Positions 5,071 to 17,553 of a stretch of DNA of 20,006 nucleotides are shown here, piece after piece. The translations under genes and the position numbers were made by a program. Position 1 is the stretch's first letter; each line of letters begins with the position of its first letter. Source of the DNA: a virus. The notes beneath the pieces are model-generated. The model had not been told where the DNA came from. It searched no databases and saw nothing but the letters and a program-made list of their open reading frames with translations. The stretch spans positions 1-20,006 of the IMG/VR virus record IMGVR_UViG_3300042429_000993; one strand, 5' to 3'.

Positions 5071-6663
5071 TTAAACAGTTTCTAAACCATGAACGATCAC
5101 TTTACCATAGAATTCTGGACGAACCATTTTCTTAGCGTAACGAGTCATTAAACCTTTACGTGGAGTAAATGTTGTTGGATCGTATACTAATGGAGTCATC
5201 ATTACAGGAATGTATGGAGCAAAAACAGCACCAGTTTCTAAGAACTGAGCACCTTTGTAACCCATCAAGATTAAGTTCTCAGTGAAATAAGGGTTTTTAT
5301 ACACCTTGTAACGACTGTTTAAAGAACCGATCTTTTGGATACCGAAGTTGAATTCTGCTTTGTCGCCATCACCATCAGAAGCAAATCCTGGGATTGATTC
5401 TAAGATAGTAGCTACAGTTGGAGAAACAACTAAGAAATTTGCTCCACCTCTCATTGTTAATTGGTGAATTTTGTTTGATACTTTTTGTAACTTAGTACCT
5501 AAAGTTTGGAACCAACCACCTTGAGTGTTGTAGAATGTGTTTGTTAAAGAAGCGAATGAAGTACCATTCCAAGCTACGTTATTTTGTGCAGACCAGAACT
5601 CAGTTGTAGAAGTTGGTACATTTTTGATCAACATTTCTAATAATTCCAAATCAATCTCCATAGAGATGTATTGGCTCATTAAGCTAGTTAATTCAGCTTC
5701 AGCATCGATTGAATGATAAGCATTCAAATCTTGTGCGAATTCTGGAGTCCATTGTGCTTTTAACTTACGAGTTTTAGCAACAACTGCCTCAGATTTCATA
5801 TTCACATCTAAAGATGGGATAGAGATTTGAGAAGAACTGTTAGCGTTAGGAACTGAATAATCAGCTCTATCTTCGAAATCACCACGAGCGTTATCTCTGT
5901 TAGCTTTATTGTAGAATAAAGTTACAGTACCATGAGCTGGAGAACCAGTTGCGATGAAAATTAAAGAACTACCAGATACTTGAGTGTACTCAGGTAAAAT
6001 TGTAGTTTCGTCAAAGTTAGAACCACTAATAAAGCAAGCTCTTACAGCTTCTAAATCTTGGTCTGTTTGAGCAGCACCGTTAGTTACAGTGATCTTCTTT
6101 AAAGAACCTGTAGCTACAGATGAATCATAATTAACATCAGCTAATGATGAGATTGATGAAGTTGCAGCTGTTAAAGATGCAGAGAATTGGTTGATTGAAT
6201 AACCAAACTTACCAACACCATATAAACCTTTTGTAGTGTCAGTTGACTTTAAGTCAGTTGTAGCACCATATAAAGATCCGTCAAATCTTTTCTTATCTGT
6301 ACCATATTTGAAGTCAAGATAGAAAATAAGACCTGAAGGTAAGCTCATAGATTGAACTGATACGAATTCTTTTGCGCTAATGTCACCGAATACACGACGA
6401 ACTAACGGTAAAGCAACTCCAGCCCAGTTTTCACCGAAACCAGCAGTGAAAGTTGCAGCACCACCACCGATACCAGTTTGGTTGCTTTCAACTACTAATT
6501 GCTTAGCTTGGTTTTCTAATAAAATAGCCATGTTGTTTTTCTCAACTTCGCCTTTAAGACCTTCTAAAAGGCCAGACTTAGTCCACTTAGAGACTAAAGT
6601 GTTAGCTGTATCCATTACGCGAGCGTATGGGTTAGCTGATTCTAATAATTGTTGTACGTTCAT
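5071..6663 (-). CDS. 23: Major capsid protein (gp23-like)
   Basis: This gene encodes 530 aa (T4 gp23 is 521 aa), the HK97-fold precursor that forms head hexamers around the scaffold. The family's central signature is present: a TRKLKAQWTPEFAQDLNAYH segment followed by IDAEAELTSLMSQYISMEID, comparable to T4 LELMQDLRAVHGVDAESELSAIL. The C-terminus (MVRPEFYGKVIVHGLETV) also fits. In T4 the protease gp21 removes 65 residues. Here a likely cut lies after E59 (LVVE/SNQTG), just before a Gly-rich GIGGGAATFTAGFGENWAG segment; T4 has LTE/AEIGG at the same place. The Ser/Thr-rich region near residues 150-270 probably holds the insertion domain. The gene follows the scaffold and is closed by two terminators. 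The leader is A-rich with no Shine-Dalgarno sequence. Confidence 0.95.
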   Translation of the reverse strand: MNVQQLLESANPYARVMDTANTLVSKWTKSGLLEGLKGEVEKNNMAILLENQAKQLVVESNQTGIGGGAATFTAGFGENWAGVALPLVRRVFGDISAKEFVSVQSMSLPSGLIFYLDFKYGTDKKRFDGSLYGATTDLKSTDTTKGLYGVGKFGYSINQFSASLTAATSSISSLADVNYDSSVATGSLKKITVTNGAAQTDQDLEAVRACFISGSNFDETTILPEYTQVSGSSLIFIATGSPAHGTVTLFYNKANRDNARGDFEDRADYSVPNANSSSQISIPSLDVNMKSEAVVAKTRKLKAQWTPEFAQDLNAYHSIDAEAELTSLMSQYISMEIDLELLEMLIKNVPTSTTEFWSAQNNVAWNGTSFASLTNTFYNTQGGWFQTLGTKLQKVSNKIHQLTMRGGANFLVVSPTVATILESIPGFASDGDGDKAEFNFGIQKIGSLNSRYKVYKNPYFTENLILMGYKGAQFLETGAVFAPYIPVMMTPLVYDPTTFTPRKGLMTRYAKKMVRPEFYGKVIVHGLETV

Positions 6664-6690: not shown

Positions 6691-7731
6691 TTAATATTTT
6701 GTTATACCTGCTAATTTCTGCATTCTAGCCATGTGTTCGTTAATTTCAACGATTTGTTTGCTAGGAGCATTGCCAGCTGGTTTTGAAGCGAATCCTTTAA
6801 TGATTCCTTCTTTAACTATACTTTTAGAAGTTTCTTTAGTTTCTAAAGACTCGTTAAGAGCTTCGAATACTAATTTAGCTTCGTTTGGTGTAGTTGCTTT
6901 ATCAAAGGCATTAATTACTTTGATTTTGTTGTCTTCAGATAAATTTTTAGCTTTGAATATTTTGTTAACATATAATAACTTAGCGTTCAATAAGTTAACT
7001 TCATTCAATTCACTACGTAAAATTTCGATTGTAGCTACTGCTTCGTCTAATTCTTTTTCGTCTTTTTTAGCTTTCTTAGCTTCATCTACTACATCTTCAG
7101 TTGCTCCGTTTTCATCTAAAGCGTCTAATTCTGCAAGTAATTCTTCTAAGTTAATTTCATCTTCTGATCCAGCATCATCCATACCCATTGAGTCATCGCC
7201 GTTACCAGCATCATTTATATCAATTTCTTCTGCGTTTTCATCTTCTTCAGTTTCAGCTTCTTCAGCTTCTAATTCAGAATCAACGATGTCTTTGATAATA
7301 CTTTTTAAATCTTCAATAGATAAATCAGCTACTGATGTTTCTTCAGATTCGCCTTCTTTAGATTCTTCATCTTCAGTTGGTTCTTCTTCAGTTTCTTCTT
7401 CAGATTCTTCATCTTCTTTAGCTTCATTAATTTCATCTTCAGAACCTTCTTCAAGTTCTAATTCTGCTAAAAATTCGTCTAAATTGAATTCTTCGTCTAA
7501 AGAAATTTCTTCTTCAATCTTTTCGCCATTTTCATTGGCGTCTGCGTCTTGTGTTTCTGCAATTGGTTCTTCATCTTCATCTTTTGCCATTTCTTCTAAT
7601 TTAGAAGCTAACATTGATTGTAAATGAGGAGTCAAAGTTTCTTCAAGAGCAGCTTTTGCATTAACTAACGCAGCTTCGCGGATAGTTTTTGCTTCAGCAA
7701 TCGCTTGCTTAAACAATTCTTTGTTTGTCAT
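6691..7731 (-). CDS. 22: Prohead scaffold/core protein (gp22-like)
   Basis: This gene encodes 346 aa, lies directly upstream of gp23, and is extremely acidic. Glu/Asp-rich tracts fill residues about 50-215 (EEDEESEEETEEEP and similar), flanked by an Ala/Glu helical N-terminus and a long helix near 220-310. This is the expected character of a T4-type core scaffold, which directs capsid shape and is then cut up by gp21 and expelled. Candidate (I/L)xE cleavage sites are frequent, starting with IAE/A and IRE/A near residues 12-20. The C-terminus ends in NEHMARMQKLAGITKY, a tag shared with two other proteins here. An AAGGA sequence sits four bases before the ATG, one of the few possible Shine-Dalgarno sites in the window. 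The call rests on position and composition because scaffold sequences diverge quickly. Confidence 0.85.
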   Translation of the reverse strand: MTNKELFKQAIAEAKTIREAALVNAKAALEETLTPHLQSMLASKLEEMAKDEDEEPIAETQDADANENGEKIEEEISLDEEFNLDEFLAELELEEGSEDEINEAKEDEESEEETEEEPTEDEESKEGESEETSVADLSIEDLKSIIKDIVDSELEAEEAETEEDENAEEIDINDAGNGDDSMGMDDAGSEDEINLEELLAELDALDENGATEDVVDEAKKAKKDEKELDEAVATIEILRSELNEVNLLNAKLLYVNKIFKAKNLSEDNKIKVINAFDKATTPNEAKLVFEALNESLETKETSKSIVKEGIIKGFASKPAGNAPSKQIVEINEHMARMQKLAGITKY

Positions 7732-7862: not shown

Positions 7863-7881
7863 TAAAACCGCGAGGGTTTTA
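7863..7881 (-). terminator. Possible weak terminator after the 68-aa gene
   Basis: A perfect 7-bp stem TAAAACC/GGTTTTA with a CTCGC loop begins on the stop codon of the 68-aa gene. The T residues lie within the stem rather than after it, so termination would be weak or partial. It separates the protease unit from the highly expressed gp22-gp23 unit. Confidence 0.45.
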
Positions 7882-8085
7882 TTTATTTTTTAATTGTTCT
7901 CTGTACCACATGGCTCCATCTATAAAATGACCTAAAGGAGAACCTTCATTATTTAAAGTATCTTCATATTTTATAGCAGCATCTCTGATTTCACTATCAG
8001 ACAATTCAATACTATTTAATTTATTCTCTTCAATCATGCCAGCTAAATGCTGCATTCTTTTAATTTCGTTGATTGGTGTTTTCAT
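7879..8085 (-). CDS. 68-aa RMQxLAGI-tagged protein between gp21 and gp22
   Basis: I start this at the ATG at 8085, giving 68 aa (MKTPINEIKRMQHLAGMIEE at the N-terminus). A longer reading from 8112 would add nine hydrophobic residues and overlap the protease gene. The N-terminal tag NEIKRMQHLAGM is shared with the extreme C-termini of gp22 and the 363-aa protein. The rest (IELSDSEIRDAAIKYEDTL, then GHFIDGAMWYREQLKNK) is helical with no known domain. An IEE/N site follows the tag and would fit the (I/L)xE rule of the T4 protease. In T4, internal head proteins carry short N-terminal targeting peptides that are clipped by gp21, so an internal or core protein is a reasonable guess. I have no homologue in mind. 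Confidence 0.75.
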   Translation of the reverse strand: MKTPINEIKRMQHLAGMIEENKLNSIELSDSEIRDAAIKYEDTLNNEGSPLGHFIDGAMWYREQLKNK

Positions 8086-8089
8086 ATAA

Positions 8090-8097
8090 ATAAATAT
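8090..8097 (-). promoter_or_regulatory. ATATTTAT element at the gp21 / 68-aa junction
   Basis: The minus-strand sequence TAATATTTATTTATATG joins the gp21 stop (TAA) to the next start. The ATATTTAT copy begins on the last base of the stop and lies only 4 bases before the ATG. The spacing differs from the others, so this may be a chance match in AT-rich DNA. Confidence 0.22.
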
Positions 8098-8702
8098 TAA
8101 CACAAAGGACAAACGCCAGTTGCATTACAGATAATTTCTGTAACTATACCACTTATCTTGCTATAATCTTTTGTTGGTTGTTGTTTACCTTCAGATAATT
8201 TCATATATGCGTTAGGTGTACTTGGTACTGATACCAAATCCCAACATAATAATTCAAAATCGTCTTGTACTTCTACTGTTTCACCAATTTGCTTAACTGA
8301 ACCCATACCGCGTGATGATATACCTAATGGAATACCCGCTAATATAATTTCTTGAGCAATTTTACCTGATGGAGTGTTTAATAATGTTAATTCACCCATA
8401 ACATCGTTTCCTTCCCACCAAACTTTTGTAATTAAGTGAGATACGTTTCCTAAGTTAACAATAGTTGATTCGGGGTGATCTAATTCACCCATAGATGTAT
8501 TAGATTGTACTTGTGTTTTAATGTAAATTTCTACTTGTTTTTTTAAAACTTCTGGTGGATAAACACGACCATTGCCGTTTTTAACTCCAGATTCTTGTAG
8601 TTTACCTTTAATACGCATTCTACCAGCCACAACGTCTTTAGACTCAGATAGAGTCATTTTAGCAATGTGAAATGGTGTATGATCTACTAATAATTGTTTC
8701 AT
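8097..8702 (-). CDS. 21: Prohead maturation protease (gp21-like)
   Basis: This gene encodes 201 aa (T4 gp21 is 212 aa), a serine protease of the herpesvirus-assemblin-like fold that cuts scaffold, core and gp23 inside the prohead, classically after (I/L)xE. The catalytic His is in MGELDHPES (H76; T4 has GELNHPP). The catalytic Ser is in GIPLGISSRGMGS (S129/S130; T4 has GVSSRGLGS). DLVSVPSTPNAYM near residues 155-168 is also conserved, as are NGNGRVYPPEVL and VWWEGNDVMGELTLL. The C-terminal tail has three cysteines (C192, C198, C201), unusual for this family and of unknown meaning. The gene starts one base after the 350-aa gene and lies upstream of gp22 and gp23, as in T4. Confidence 0.95.
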   Translation of the reverse strand: MKQLLVDHTPFHIAKMTLSESKDVVAGRMRIKGKLQESGVKNGNGRVYPPEVLKKQVEIYIKTQVQSNTSMGELDHPESTIVNLGNVSHLITKVWWEGNDVMGELTLLNTPSGKIAQEIILAGIPLGISSRGMGSVKQIGETVEVQDDFELLCWDLVSVPSTPNAYMKLSEGKQQPTKDYSKISGIVTEIICNATGVCPLC

Positions 8703-8703
8703 A

Positions 8704-9756
8704 TTATTTACTAATGTCGTTTATGTCGCTAAATCCTTCTCCGTATTTTGAAATAGTTGTATTGCCATTGTTTTGAAACTTAACTACTACAAGTGCTTTA
8801 CCTTCTTTAGATTTTAACACATCGTATACAACTCCTTCTTGACCAGATTTTGATTTAACTTTATCGTTATCTTTAAATCCAGTACCATTATCACTAACTG
8901 AATCATATCCAGCTATATCGTCATAATATCCTTCGTTTAATGAATTTTCTTCTTCAAGAACTTCACGAACGATTTCTTCTAATGATGCTTTAAATTTCTC
9001 AAATGCAGCACCTAAATCTTTTTCACCAGTTCTAAATTGAGATGGTTTTGGAGTTAAGATATAAGCAATTTTCATTCCTGTATCTTCATCTTCATCAGTA
9101 TCTTCTTCAATATCAAATTGAATTGATAATTTTTCATAAACACCTTCAGGCATTCTTTCCCAATATCCAAATTTTAAAACTGCATCTTCATCATGATTTT
9201 GCAATGTAATATCACCTGCGAATTGTTTTAATTGATTGTTTAAATCAATAAATTGAGCAGCTTGTTTTACTGCTTCATTTGGTTCTTCGTTAGGAGCTAG
9301 ATTTAAACCAGTCTCATCTAAATTTTCTTTAACAACTTCTTTAACTTTTTTCATACCATTTTCGGTATCAATGTCGCTAGGTTTTTTTTTAGATTTTTTA
9401 ACCTTAATTTTTTCAGGTTCAACTGCTTGGCCACTTAAATTTAATTGGCTATAATAAGAAGAATTTTTCTTCAAATTAGCATAAACAGTTTTTTTAGCTT
9501 TTTCAACATCACCTTCGTGCTTAGCTACTTCTACCTTTAAACCTAAATCAACTTCAACTGGATTGCAAAGGTGGTCTGTATTTTCTGCTTTAGCTTCACT
9601 TAATAAACCCTTATTTTTAAGGATTTTAACTGAATCATCAAAGTTAGTTACGTTAGTAATGTATTGAGGGAAAGTCATACGAATATTTCTCATGAAATTC
9701 GCTTGAGACATATTACCTTCTCTTAACTCGTTATATTGTGTTTGTGTACTTTTCAT
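8704..9756 (-). CDS. Prohead-core-region protein with IREV tag and KOW/SH3-like end
   Basis: This gene encodes 350 aa, of unknown function, and precedes the protease at the place of T4 prohead-core genes 67/68. Residues 1-55 form a compact helical module (YNELREGNMSQANFMRNIRM, then FDDSVKILKNKGLLSE). A Lys-rich patch lies at 115-126 and an acidic patch at 216-226. Residues 258-270 read SLEEIVREVLEEE, a tag shared with two other proteins of this region and containing VRE/LEE motifs that resemble protease sites. Residues about 293-340 (FKDNDKVKSKSGQEGVVYDV, then ALVVVKFQNNG) look like a small KOW/SH3-type beta barrel. I infer a core or scaffold component. The start follows the 40-aa gene by ten bases, with AAGGAAG about 14 bases ahead of the ATG. 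Confidence 0.8.
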   Translation of the reverse strand: MKSTQTQYNELREGNMSQANFMRNIRMTFPQYITNVTNFDDSVKILKNKGLLSEAKAENTDHLCNPVEVDLGLKVEVAKHEGDVEKAKKTVYANLKKNSSYYSQLNLSGQAVEPEKIKVKKSKKKPSDIDTENGMKKVKEVVKENLDETGLNLAPNEEPNEAVKQAAQFIDLNNQLKQFAGDITLQNHDEDAVLKFGYWERMPEGVYEKLSIQFDIEEDTDEDEDTGMKIAYILTPKPSQFRTGEKDLGAAFEKFKASLEEIVREVLEEENSLNEGYYDDIAGYDSVSDNGTGFKDNDKVKSKSGQEGVVYDVLKSKEGKALVVVKFQNNGNTTISKYGEGFSDINDISK

Positions 9757-9766
9757 TATTATTATT

Positions 9767-9889
9767 TTATCTTCCTTGACCTTTATATGCTTTAGGGCGT
9801 GGAGTATGTTTATTATATTTTTTCTTTGCTGTGCCTACTTTACGTTTACCAAATGATAACTTATTGTTGTTGCCTACTAATCTTGCCAC
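9767..9889 (-). CDS. 40-aa basic protein with GTG start
   Basis: This is a short gene that is easily missed because it begins with GTG. Its first base is the last base of the preceding stop codon (TAGTG), which suggests translational coupling. The 40 residues read MARLVGNNNKLSFG, then KRKVGTAKKKYNKHT, then PRPKAYKGQGR. The protein is strongly basic, Gly/Lys/Arg-rich, and has almost no acidic residues. It fills an otherwise empty 132-base gap between two core-region genes. I infer nucleic-acid or scaffold binding, since a basic peptide would suit an acidic prohead core, but no family is recognised. Support comes from the exact stop/start overlap, the full open frame and the tight packing all around it. 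Confidence 0.72.
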   Translation of the reverse strand: MARLVGNNNKLSFGKRKVGTAKKKYNKHTPRPKAYKGQGR

Positions 9890-10995
9890 TACTGATTTAA
9901 ATTTTTAATTTTATTATTAAGATGATTTACCATTTCTGCTATTTGAGAAACATTCTTTTGAGTTGCTTTCCAATATGAAATACCACCTTCATCTTCACTT
10001 AATTCTTGTTTCATGCGTGATGTATATTCAACAATACGATCAATTTCAGCTAACTTACGTTTTACCTCACGAATTGCTTTATGCAATTGTTCAGATTTAG
10101 TTCTGTGGGTTACTTCTTTTTTGAATTTACCGTAGGATACTTCACTTAGTATACCTGCTTCAATCATATCATTTAATTTCATTTCTTCTATTTTTTGTAT
10201 ATTACTAGGTATTACATTTGTAGCAGGTAAACCTTTAAGATTTTTTAGTCGTACTAAACCATTAGGAAAAATATTTATTACTTCCCATTCTTGGTTTTCG
10301 TATTTAACTTTATCACCTACTTTAAATTCACCCACAGCTTCAAATATTTTTTTATAATCAAATAATTTTGAGTTTTTAGGTCGCTTTAAATCAGCTACTG
10401 TCCAACCCATTTTCTTTAAAAATTTAACTGCTCTATTCTCACCTTTCTTTTTACCACCAAACGCAAACGGTGTTGCATAATTTTCACCTGAACCCGCACT
10501 AAAAGAAGCACCACTACCTGTTGCATTTTCCTCACTCATCATTATTTCACGAGCGTATGCTTTAATGGCAGATTTTAATGCTGCTTTTTTTTCTTCAGAT
10601 ATTCCTGCTACTGTTCTGCCTTTATAAGTATTTTTTAAATAATTAACCATTTCAGCATTCATATTGAAATTAGACTCCAATGGTTTATCATCTGGTTTTG
10701 ATTCTATTGTCTTTGACATCATTTGCATGAATCCATTTTCAACAGTATCATCTACTATAGCAGACATGCTATCATCTATATCTAGTTTATCTAACCAAGT
10801 GTTTGTTTTTTTAGAATCTGGTTTTGATATTGCTGCTCTTATAAATTCAAATGTTGTTTTAGCAGCTTCAGCCCCAGGTATAAACCCCATTAATGTTCCT
10901 AAAGCTATATTACCTATTTTTTCTCCTTTTTGTTTGAGGGTAATAGATTTAATAACTTTTTTTAAATCACCATATGTGTTTAATTCTAATGCCAT
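9889..10995 (-). CDS. Prohead-region protein bearing a gp23-cleavage-like segment
   Basis: This gene encodes 368 aa; I do not recognise the family. Residues about 20-60 have a Gly/Ala-rich hydrophobic stretch (IGNIALGTLMGFIPGAEAAK) that could insert in or lie on a membrane. Residues 153-174 (MSEENATGSGASF, then SAGSGENYA) repeat the sequence at the gp23 maturation site almost position by position, including the Glu that would be cut. A basic patch GGKKKGENRAVKFLKKMGW follows. Residues about 221-266 (VGEFKVGDKVKYENQEWEVI onward) resemble a KOW/SH3-like barrel. The last 90 residues are helical and probably coiled-coil (QLHKAIREVKRKLAEIDRIV). The start shares a base with the previous stop (TAATG). 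I infer a structural or core protein processed by gp21, possibly a fusion of several modules. Confidence 0.8.
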   Translation of the reverse strand: MALELNTYGDLKKVIKSITLKQKGEKIGNIALGTLMGFIPGAEAAKTTFEFIRAAISKPDSKKTNTWLDKLDIDDSMSAIVDDTVENGFMQMMSKTIESKPDDKPLESNFNMNAEMVNYLKNTYKGRTVAGISEEKKAALKSAIKAYAREIMMSEENATGSGASFSAGSGENYATPFAFGGKKKGENRAVKFLKKMGWTVADLKRPKNSKLFDYKKIFEAVGEFKVGDKVKYENQEWEVINIFPNGLVRLKNLKGLPATNVIPSNIQKIEEMKLNDMIEAGILSEVSYGKFKKEVTHRTKSEQLHKAIREVKRKLAEIDRIVEYTSRMKQELSEDEGGISYWKATQKNVSQIAEMVNHLNNKIKNLNQ

Positions 10996-11258
10996 TATTT
11001 ATAGCCTAACTTAGTTAATACTTGTTCAACTTGACTTCTAATAGCAGATTTACTAATCTTTCCTGGTTCAAACCCTAAAGTTTGAAACCAAATTTCAAAA
11101 GCTCCTGGGAACTTCTGAATGTTATTAATATTTTTAGATTTGCTAGCTAAAGTAGTTGCAGATGCTTGTGCTCTACCTAAAGCCGCTACATCACTTGGGA
11201 TATTAGTTGCCTCTTCTACTACTTCTCTTATAAGAGATTGTAATTGTTGTTTAGTCAT
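10995..11258 (-). CDS. 87-aa IREV-tagged small protein
   Basis: This gene encodes 87 aa with no recognised domain. The N-terminus TKQQLQSLIREVVEEA carries the same amphipathic tag as the 363-aa protein (KKSELQDIIREALLEV) and the 350-aa protein. It offers VEE/A or IRE/V bonds of the sort cut by T4-type proheads proteases. An Ala/Ser-rich spacer follows, then a small globular-looking region (FPGAFEIWFQTLGFEPGKIS) and a final helix with SQVEQVLTKLGYK. Both ends overlap the neighbouring genes by one base (TAATG), so it is translated with them. Its size and place resemble T4 gene 67, an 80-aa core protein. The sequence similarity to gp67 is not evident to me, so this is positional inference only. 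Confidence 0.75.
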   Translation of the reverse strand: MTKQQLQSLIREVVEEATNIPSDVAALGRAQASATTLASKSKNINNIQKFPGAFEIWFQTLGFEPGKISKSAIRSQVEQVLTKLGYK

Positions 11259-12143: not shown

Positions 12144-14006
12144 TTATTTTTCTATACCCTTGATATTATTTTCGTTTAATAGATCGGATTCTACAGGTTT
12201 AGTAACTTCATATAAAGTTATAGTTTTGGCTTCTGCCGCTTCTCTAGCTCTTTTTAATTCAGATAGGGCTAACGGTGAACCGCCTTTATATGCTTGTTGC
12301 ATTGGTTGTTTATCTTGAGTAGAAGACATATTGTATTCCTTACTACCAATTGGATCTTTACCAAATGAACTTTTCTGAGTACCAAATATAGATGCTTTTT
12401 GTGTTGGGCGCCCAACTGGATCTTTTTCATCATATCCAACAGGCACTGCGCCTTGTCCATTTCTGCCCTTACCATATAATGAAGCTAAATCATGTGGAGT
12501 ACCGAATGATCTACCAGTTTTAGCTGGGTCATTGCCTTCATTTTCAACTTGTTGAAGTCTAAATGCACGTTTTTTATCTTCTAACACTAAATCACGCATC
12601 TCATCGTATTGATCTTCGCTGAATTGGAATATTCTATCGTATATAAAGTCGGATGGGATTAAACCTGTATCAAGAGCATCTTTAGCAAGTGATACTTTTT
12701 CTTTCCACATTGCTACTTGTTCTTGTTGGTAGATGATTGATGGAGGCGTTAATGTTAATTCAAATCCTGTTAATTCATCACCATCAAATCCTTGAGTATA
12801 TAAATGCACTAATGCAATTTTATACAATTCAGATACAAGTACCTTTTGCACACGCTCAATTGTACGAGCAAAACGAATATCTTCAGCAGCTAATGTAGCT
12901 TTACCAGTTAAATCTTTTTCAAATCCGAAGAATGCTTTAGGCACCTTAAGCGCTGCTAACATTTCATCACGTAAGAAATTCACGTCTTCAATACCATTGT
13001 ATTCTAAACCTTTTAAGGTGTCGATTTTAGTATTTTGGTTTGCACCTCTTACTGGGATAATAAAATCTTCAAGTGAATTCTGGATATTATAACGTAAATT
13101 GTAATCACCAGTTTGGGCATCCATAAATGGAGTCTTTTTCATTTTATTGGTGATACGCTCCATGTAGTTATCCACTTCATGTGCTGGTATTCCACCAACG
13201 TCTACGTAGAAGACACGCTTTTCAGGCGATCTCATAATACGATGTATTAACATCGCATCTTTCATTAATGTATATTGTTTGTAAACCTTACGAGCTGGTT
13301 CAATAAATGAACGTCCATAAGGTAAATAGTTAGCATCCGCGTATAATCTAAAGTGAGCTATTTCATAATTCTCAAAACGCTTTTTCATATTGCTTTTATC
13401 CATATGGACAGTACTAGCTAATGCGTTTGGATCATATTCAAAATAAACCTCAAATGGGTTGTTAGGATTTAGACCTTCTCTTCTAGCCAATTCATATGAT
13501 GATAAAGGCATAACATTGTATACCCCCATCTCACTGTTAATTTCTAAAAATAAATAAAAATCACCATATTTACACATCTGGCGAGTCCAAGGCCAAAGGT
13601 TAAATTCAATATTTAAAATATCGTAGAATAAGTTATAAAGTACTTTTTGTACTTTTTCATTAGATGAGCGAATTTGTAAAATCTCACCCGCTTCATTTTT
13701 TAATGTAGTTTCATCAGACACAATATCAAGAGCAGAAGCGATAATAGATTCTGAATCCATTGCTTCATAGTCATTATATAGCTGTGTTCTTAATGTCTGA
13801 TAGTTAATAGCAGGATTGAACATAGCAGACATGCTAGTTCTATGTAGACGCGTAAAACGGTCTACTAAGCTATTTGTTTGTGCACTTCCATAGGCTTGAG
13901 TACGGTCTGTGTCTACCACTTTTAATTGTCCACCACCAACGTTTCTTATTACAACGTCAGTTGAAAACAATCGTCTCAGCCTTGAAAATAAATCTGTATT
14001 AGCCAT
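12144..14006 (-). CDS. 20: Portal vertex protein (gp20-like)
   Basis: This gene encodes 620 aa (T4 gp20 is 524 aa). Twelve copies form the ring at one head vertex that nucleates prohead assembly, docks terminase and later joins the neck. Family signatures are clear: a YEAMDSESIIASALDIVSDE segment near residue 85, PWTRQMCKYGDFYLFLEI, YGRSFIEPARKVYKQYTLMK, and RIMRSPEKRVFYVDVGGIPA (T4 has RAPERRVFYIDVGNLP). DEMLAALKVPKAFFGF follows. The roughly 120 residues from about position 500 onward are Gly/Gln/Ser/Lys-rich low complexity and account for the extra length. The start is preceded at 24 bases by an ATATTTAT element and an A-rich leader without Shine-Dalgarno. The gene follows terminase by 33 bases. 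Confidence 0.95.
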   Translation of the reverse strand: MANTDLFSRLRRLFSTDVVIRNVGGGQLKVVDTDRTQAYGSAQTNSLVDRFTRLHRTSMSAMFNPAINYQTLRTQLYNDYEAMDSESIIASALDIVSDETTLKNEAGEILQIRSSNEKVQKVLYNLFYDILNIEFNLWPWTRQMCKYGDFYLFLEINSEMGVYNVMPLSSYELARREGLNPNNPFEVYFEYDPNALASTVHMDKSNMKKRFENYEIAHFRLYADANYLPYGRSFIEPARKVYKQYTLMKDAMLIHRIMRSPEKRVFYVDVGGIPAHEVDNYMERITNKMKKTPFMDAQTGDYNLRYNIQNSLEDFIIPVRGANQNTKIDTLKGLEYNGIEDVNFLRDEMLAALKVPKAFFGFEKDLTGKATLAAEDIRFARTIERVQKVLVSELYKIALVHLYTQGFDGDELTGFELTLTPPSIIYQQEQVAMWKEKVSLAKDALDTGLIPSDFIYDRIFQFSEDQYDEMRDLVLEDKKRAFRLQQVENEGNDPAKTGRSFGTPHDLASLYGKGRNGQGAVPVGYDEKDPVGRPTQKASIFGTQKSSFGKDPIGSKEYNMSSTQDKQPMQQAYKGGSPLALSELKRAREAAEAKTITLYEVTKPVESDLLNENNIKGIEK

Positions 14007-16461: not shown

Positions 16462-17553
16462 TTATTTTTTTATTCCAGCGTAATATTGTAATCTACTTTT
16501 AAATGCTTCGTCGATTGGTTCTTCCTCTGTTGTTGGATTTTCAATTTCTGGTTCCTCTGTTGGTTTAGTTTTAGCTAATTTAGGATGTTCAGCTTCAATT
16601 TTAGCAATTCTATCATCTAATGATGTTTTTAAAGCACGTAAACGTGTTAATTCATCTGATGGTCTATCATTAATGTCACCTGCTGTTCCTTTAGCGCGTT
16701 TTAATTTTAATATATTGCTTTTAGTTGCGGCTAAACGGCGTTCTAATTCTCTATGTTGTAACCAAGCTTCATAATCAACATCAGAAGCACTAGAGGCATC
16801 AGATGTTGCTTTTTCAAAGTCAGTCATTTCTGGTTCTTCATCTTCACCTGATGCTTTTGCAGCAGCAAATGATGCATCAACTTCTTCATCAGACATTTCT
16901 TCTTTTCCTGAAATACCCAATGCGTCTAATTCCGCTTGTGAGAATCCACCAGCACCACCTGCTGTTGTTTCTTCCCCACTATCTGTAGTTGTAGTTGGTC
17001 TTGTTGTTGGACGTTGTGCAATTTGTTCTTCTGAAGGAACAATAATCCCTGCATCAACTAATTCCATAAAGTCTTTGTTGATTGGATTTTGTTTATCATA
17101 TCCCATTTCACCAGCTACATTCATTTTTGATACAGCAGATCCTGCAGCTTTAATAGCAGCAACGATTTTTGCTTTCTTACCAGCCATAGCAGTAATTTGC
17201 TCGTCAGTAACATCATCAGCTAACTGATAGCGAATACCTACGTTTGCCATTTCATCTAATTCTGTTGAAGACATACCTGGCTTTGATAGTTTAGAAAGTT
17301 TTATTTGAGCGGCTTGTATATTCTTATTAACGGCATTTACTTCAGCATCCTTTCCCGGTTTATCCACTGGGGCAACTTGTTGGGAAGTTAGTTCTTGTTT
17401 TTTCTTATTAAGTGCTGCTATTTTACTTTTTTCGGCATTCAATGCAGCAGTTTGAGCATTTTTATCTTCGGCAGCACCTTCATCAATTACTTCTAATAGG
17501 GCTTCACGGATAATATCTTGCAGTTCTGATTTTTTCATGGTATCTTTGTTCAT
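16462..17553 (-). CDS. Acidic protein carrying both head-module tags
   Basis: This gene encodes 363 aa from the first ATG. A second ATG at 17538 would begin exactly at the tag MKKSELQDIIREALLEV and is 24 bases from an ATATTTAT element, so it may be the true start. The N-terminal tag matches the 87-aa and 350-aa proteins. The C-terminus AFKSRLQYYAGIKK matches the RMQxLAGI tag of gp22 and the 68-aa protein. Between lie Ala/Lys/Gln-rich helices, a Thr-rich linker (PTTRPTTTTDSGEETTAGGA, near 190), an acidic segment and a final coiled coil (ELTRLRALKTSLDDRIAKIE). No enzyme motif is seen. I infer a virion-internal or scaffold-associated protein, although it sits upstream of the terminase rather than among the core genes. 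Confidence 0.78.
   Translation of the reverse strand: MNKDTMKKSELQDIIREALLEVIDEGAAEDKNAQTAALNAEKSKIAALNKKKQELTSQQVAPVDKPGKDAEVNAVNKNIQAAQIKLSKLSKPGMSSTELDEMANVGIRYQLADDVTDEQITAMAGKKAKIVAAIKAAGSAVSKMNVAGEMGYDKQNPINKDFMELVDAGIIVPSEEQIAQRPTTRPTTTTDSGEETTAGGAGGFSQAELDALGISGKEEMSDEEVDASFAAAKASGEDEEPEMTDFEKATSDASSASDVDYEAWLQHRELERRLAATKSNILKLKRAKGTAGDINDRPSDELTRLRALKTSLDDRIAKIEAEHPKLAKTKPTEEPEIENPTTEEEPIDEAFKSRLQYYAGIKK

Follow-up and report, generated by a model that had tools for sequence, protein, structure and literature searches.

The segment that carries the predicted maturation cleavage site of the major capsid protein gp23 was found a second time in an unrelated protein of 368 residues, here called P, encoded in the head-gene block of the window, the 20,006-nucleotide stretch of viral DNA analyzed. 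Sequence comparisons confirm that the shared segment is real and more than a chance resemblance. P probably belongs to the prohead core and is probably cut by the gp21-type protease at E155|E156, which would separate an N-terminal domain (domain A) from the core part of the protein. Head maturation of the T4 type is known already, and the extended site common to two unrelated head proteins is a variant of it.

The minus-strand head-gene block of this T4-like phage encodes, in order, the terminase, the portal, proteins of 284 and 87 residues, P, a 350-residue protein, the gp21-type protease, a 77-residue protein, a gp22-like acidic protein, gp23, a PhoH-like protein and others (Table 1). The terminase and PhoH-like protein were assigned by eye and by the matching annotation of Flavobacterium phage immuto. 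The gene order 20-...-P-...-21-22-23 resembles the 20-67-68-21-22-23 order of T4, and as in T4 the core genes are positioned between portal and protease, the interval that holds genes 67 and 68 in T4. The score of the window gp23 against Pfam Gp23 was 252.6 bits, above the curated cut-off of 24.4. The His/Ser/Asp triad of the gp21 homologue is intact when aligned with H85/S140/D168 of T4. Flavobacterium phage immuto is the nearest cultured relative by gp23 (57.6% identity), and the uncultured relatives match, by our own assignment, the 'Far-T4' phages of an earlier study (PMC4360716).

Table 1. Features of the head-gene block, with window coordinates and the basis of each assignment.
Feature	Coordinates	Strand	Basis
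Segment shared with gp23, P residues 155-174, EENATGSGASFSAGSGENYA	10474..10533	-	Pairwise BLAST and pattern scans; predicted disordered arm
gp23 cleavage-site segment, E59-A81, ESNQTGIGGGAATFTAGFGENWA	6421..6489	-	E59 aligned with T4 gp23 E65; predicted mature N-terminus S60
Predicted gp21 cleavage bond E155|E156 (M-S-E|E-N-A-T-G)	10528..10533	-	Invariant Glu column; P3 mostly L/M/I
Domain A, residues 1-136, mobile	10588..10995	-	Fused at the N-terminus of various core proteins, or stand-alone
Predicted amphipathic helix, residues 134-154, MDLKEYIKSLVREMLDE	10534..10596	-	AlphaFold helix 134-153 and 135-154; N-terminus in short relatives
T-P-x-A-F box, residues 175-179	10459..10473	-	Column counts; conserved in P only, not gp23
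SH3/Tudor/KOW-like insert, residues ~225-263	10207..10323	-	Strands with pLDDT ~80; weak Foldseek Tudor/KOW matches
Conserved C-terminal helical core domain, residues 274-368	9892..10176	-	Near-invariant in 58 relatives; helices 301-332 and 337-367
368-residue protein (P)	9889..10995	-	ORF; prohead-core gene block, portal–prohead protease interval
gp23-type major capsid protein	5071..6663	-	Pfam Gp23 1.1e-74; PHROG 138 3.5e-68
gp21-type prohead protease (Peptidase S77)	8097..8702	-	Pfam 4.3e-33; triad alignment
gp22-like acidic scaffold candidate	6691..7731	-	Position directly before gp23 and composition; without family match
350-residue core-block protein, FKASLEEIVREVLEEE helix in C-terminal half	8704..9756	-	Weak match to P-module HMM
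87-residue core-block protein, start MTKQQLQSLIREVVEE	10995..11258	-	Relatives fused to domain A in other phages
gp20 portal, marker of T4-type head gene order	12144..14006	-	PHROG 213 3.1e-56

The first-pass annotation of this DNA had placed the common pattern at residues 155-174 of P (10533..10474) and residues 59-81 of gp23 (6489..6421), and both positions are exact. The pattern holds in both proteins, except that G-x-G and F are separated by two residues in P and by five in gp23 rather than by the three to five originally given. Pairwise BLAST of P against gp23 with filters off returned an E-value of 0.001, the alignment starting at residue 134 of P and residue 39 of gp23. The two proteins had been described as otherwise dissimilar; a profile of the P family found nothing more in gp23, but the helix of about 20 residues that precedes the segment aligns weakly by BLAST. 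The placement of the gp23 segment at the position of the T4-type cut was borne out, since E59 aligns with E65 of T4 gp23 (FLTE|AEIGG), a known cleavage site.

Relatives of P were encoded by 68 and subsequently 80 IMG/VR loci, and 86 distinct proteins were aligned. Glu occupies the E155 column in 82 of them; the exceptions are two proteins that do not reach the column and two fusions of domain A to other proteins, so that all 82 true P-family members reaching the column have Glu. A filtered alignment with an invariant Glu was left out of the evidence because its rows had been selected for that residue. The P3 column contains L (63), M (16), I (4), F (1) and V (1), with L, M or I in 83 of 85 rows, a composition that, as far as an alignment can tell, suits the T4 rule by which gp21 cuts after L/I-x-E (PMC9026906). 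The P3 residues of the window proteins, M in P (M-S-E) and V in gp23 (V-V-E), are hydrophobic and neither L nor I, which counts against the main reading. Downstream of the bond both families have S/N at P2', T/S at P4' and mostly G at P5'; among the major capsid proteins P2' is S/N in 59 of 59 and P5' is G in 58 of 59.

The octamer [LIVMF]xEx[SN]x[TS]G was present in 50 of 51 major capsid ORFs (1.2 expected after shuffling) and in 54 of 75 P ORFs (0.2 expected), and in none of approximately 1,017 other ORFs of the head-gene neighbourhoods, where 5.6 were expected from shuffled residues. Ten matches first scored as other ORFs were fragments or remote members of the gp23 and P families and were reassigned. 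The ORFs are related across loci and are not independent trials; what stands out is the retention of the motif in two unrelated families and its absence from the proteins encoded around them. The strict octamer was missed in 21 P ORFs, some of them fragments and mostly with A or S instead of G at P5', also a point against the main reading. P contains 11 [LIM]xE triplets, most of them in the conserved C-terminal domain, and the triplet alone therefore predicts little. The reading, as first suggested, that both proteins are processed at the same kind of bond is well supported because gp23 E59 corresponds to T4 E65, the E155 column is invariant, the gp21 triad is intact and the octamer is restricted to the two families. 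That the resemblance is an accident of a common Gly-rich linker, the alternative already raised in the first-pass annotation, is scarcely credible: the stretch, rich in Gly, Ala and Ser, aligns pairwise at an E-value of only 0.001, but the motif is confined to two families with an invariant Glu, and scans of whole genomes located the arm solely in gp23 and P.

In those scans the pattern F..G.GEN was limited to gp23 and P in the window, and it occurred exactly twice, once in each protein, in the near-complete relatives G002 (171 kb) and G003 (133 kb). It occurred once in G001 because gp23 of that genome has one extra Gly. There were no matches in eight genomes of other clades and none with a reversed-pattern control. 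The broader arm pattern F.[ASTP]G.G[EAQ] was likewise confined to gp23 and P when every ORF of G002 and G003 was scanned. The extension F.AG.GEN[WY]A is limited to these two proteins and to the clade of the window, every genome of which encodes TGxGGG(A/T)A(T/S)F.AG(G)FGENWAG in gp23 and TG.GA[ST]F.AG.GENYATP in P. Other clades have gp23 arms such as NSENWAG, ESWNG, EAWNG and EGWNG and shorter P arms such as GEAYATP, GGYLTP and GPIMTP. The confinement of the long match to one clade would be expected had a piece of the gp23 gene recently been copied into the core-protein gene without functional meaning. Such a copy is very unlikely given that every clade member keeps both versions and that almost every clade has the short core motif in both families; duplication or gene conversion of DNA was rejected as the source, the two stretches differing at many third positions.

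The simplest reason for the extension within the clade would be that both mature N-terminal arms meet one partner, either a protease exosite or the interior of the shell. For the T4 and phiKZ proteases, hardly any requirement apart from P3 and P1 has been reported (PMC9026906), and a long requirement on the P' side would therefore be unusual, which counts against the main reading. The clade match runs approximately 19 residues past the bond, beyond the known requirement of the protease, which favours the earlier suggestion that the C-terminal part of cleaved P presents a capsid-like N-terminal arm and enters the shell lattice instead of, or beside, the arm of gp23. In line with that suggestion the arms of P (TGTGASVTPGVGAGVAT) and gp23 (TGTGGTFAPGTGEQWAG) are both long and similar to each other in a separate lineage, G012. 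Similarity of arms from the same genome slightly exceeded that of permuted pairs (p = 0.04 local and 0.009 global, averaged over 16 clades that are not independent; p = 0.11 and 0.02 when the clade of the window was removed), which is suggestive only. Docking of this kind is nonetheless unlikely and still speculative, the full-length match being limited to the window clade. In most relatives the P arm is much shorter, ends in YxTPxAF and is no closer to its own gp23 arm than to other gp23 arms, the own-genome rank often being middling. Furthermore, additional conserved [LI]xE triplets lie in the C-terminal domain, and its possible degradation makes docking less plausible. The idea that the two arms co-evolve strongly across the clades as a whole was rejected, since the permutations gave only modest support and the clades lack independence.

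The architecture of P is that of a fusion. Many relatives lack domain A and start at the helix (MDLKEYIKSLVREMLDE|MS...), and fused forms often retain an internal Met at the helix (ENKEMDLKEYIK...), indicating that the upstream domain was added before a complete protein. Domain A was found before P, before relatives of the 87-residue protein, before other small proteins and alone, and its place is taken by another N-terminal domain in several loci (L010, L019-L023, L050 and L069). The SH3/Tudor/KOW-like insert is lacking in many relatives (e.g. L008 and L021), and even close relatives differ in whether they have it. Two AlphaFold models of P were poor overall (mean pLDDT 50 and 63); in both, the predicted helix ends at residue 153 or 154 and residues 155-174 are disordered from E155 onward (pLDDT < 50). 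In L031/L178, L174 and L202 domain A is joined in-frame to proteins like the 87-residue core protein of the window (SINDLPGVFEVWFSSLG...), so that the neighbour gene here is a fusion partner elsewhere. The stand-alone domain A of L225 (3965-4414) and L233 (3956-4417) has a short N-terminal helix of its own, MIKLKPIVSQIILEAE and MLKLKPIVNQILAEE respectively, that ends in E (IILE|A-type) and looks like a T4-type targeting sequence with its cleavage Glu.

The most probable maturation pathway is one in which P, with its amphipathic helix and the flexible arm that follows, would be cut by gp21 at E155|E156 as gp23 would be at E59|S60. The recognition core common to both substrates would be [hydrophobic]-x-E|x-[S/N]-x-[T/S]-G, which extends the L/I-x-E rule of T4. 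Cleavage would free domain A (residues 1-154), an interchangeable domain that is probably head-internal cargo and is probably packaged or ejected; the C-terminal core part may be kept or degraded further like the core proteins of T4. It is also possible, and proposed here only tentatively, that helix, extended gp21 site and docking arm form a portable maturation cassette common to a capsid and a core protein. Within the core protein the cassette would link interchangeable cargo to the scaffold, a single cleavage event would both mature the shell and release the cargo inside the head, and the arm would be recognized by a common partner. A different outcome, in which the site is one of many gp21 cuts that reduce P to peptides in the manner of gp22, gp67 or gp68 and neither half has a mature role, is rather doubtful. 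The abundance of [LIM]xE triplets and the degradation of T4 core proteins (PMC9958956) are in its favour, but domain A can stand apart as a module, occurring alone or with its own N-terminal helix, which suggests a role of its own.

The closest known system is head maturation in T4, where the gp21 substrates are gp23, gp24, IPI-III, Alt, gp22, gp67 and gp68. The phage of the window resembles it in the gp21 homologue with its triad, the gp23 Glu at the T4 E65 position and the hydrophobic-x-Glu site. In contrast to T4, where the rule is only L/I-x-E, the likeness of two unrelated substrates here continues downstream through x-[S/N]-x-[T/S]-G, and over approximately 19 residues in one clade. The capsid targeting sequence (CTS) of the T4 internal proteins IPI-III likewise consists of a short helix with a cleavage Glu after it, and their mature domains are variable and interchangeable. 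The T4 CTS is N-terminal and about 10 residues long, whereas the helix and site of P are internal (134-156), behind a domain of 133 residues; they resemble a CTS fused to the C-terminus of cargo, and the short relatives have them N-terminally. A short N-terminal targeting helix cut at x-x-E is absent from P, and a similar start was seen in the stand-alone domain A of L225 and L233. T4 Alt loses propeptides at both termini (PMC9026906); as a packaged protein with a gp21 site close to its C-terminus, it offers a precedent in cleavage pattern for the release of a domain from the N-terminal side. Prohead cleavage in the giant phages phiKZ and SPN3US (S/A-x-E) likewise has Glu at P1 and many head substrates, but the P3 preference differs and no shared downstream arm is reported there.

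Homology searches placed P in no described family. Neither PHROGs nor Pfam contained a family above threshold; PHROG 28485 against the C-terminal domain (E = 0.011) is merely a lead. Comparison with solved structures gave nothing convincing, and Foldseek with the low-confidence model gave only weak Tudor/KOW matches, to the insert. Domain A had no family match. Homology to T4 gp68, despite the similar gene position, was rejected (hhalign probability 0.2%), a further point against the main reading. A tblastn search of annotated phages with P gave no matches, nor did megablast of the head block. With a short P relative as query, Flavobacterium phage immuto was the only convincing tblastn match; Microcystis phage Mel-JY01 was found through gp23 and its P protein by local blastp. 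The extended motif was not described in the literature searched, an absence that does not show that no description exists.

The restriction of an extended motif to two head proteins, in place of the weak L/I-x-E triplet, offers a sequence-level predictor of prohead-protease sites for the abundant and mostly uncultured T4-like phages. The findings also point to a natural system in which varied domains are linked to a head-core protein through a cleavable connection, and these phages may bring proteins into the host in this way. A cultured phage, Flavobacterium phage immuto (laboratory host Flavobacterium sp. LMO8), carries both sites in their short form, with the predicted cuts after QIVSE in gp23 and after EVLEE in its short P relative immuto26A_199, and would allow cleavage to be examined directly.

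Scanning of whole genomes with the octamer gave one extra match each in G002 and G003. In G002 (locus L274, 8982-9482) an ORF of 167 residues has an N-terminal MQKLAGI tag followed by LEEISLSG and may be a third substrate with the extended site. A second recurring tag, R-x-Q-x-[LY]-A-G-[IM] (RMQKLAGITKY, RMQHLAGMIEE, RLQYYAGIKK), was observed at the ends of head-block proteins, in the window at the C-terminus of 6691-7731, the N-terminus of 7879-8112 and the C-terminus of 16462-17553. Across the whole genomes of G002 and G003 it was carried by three to four proteins each, where shuffling predicted 0.0, and it may be another head-targeting tag.
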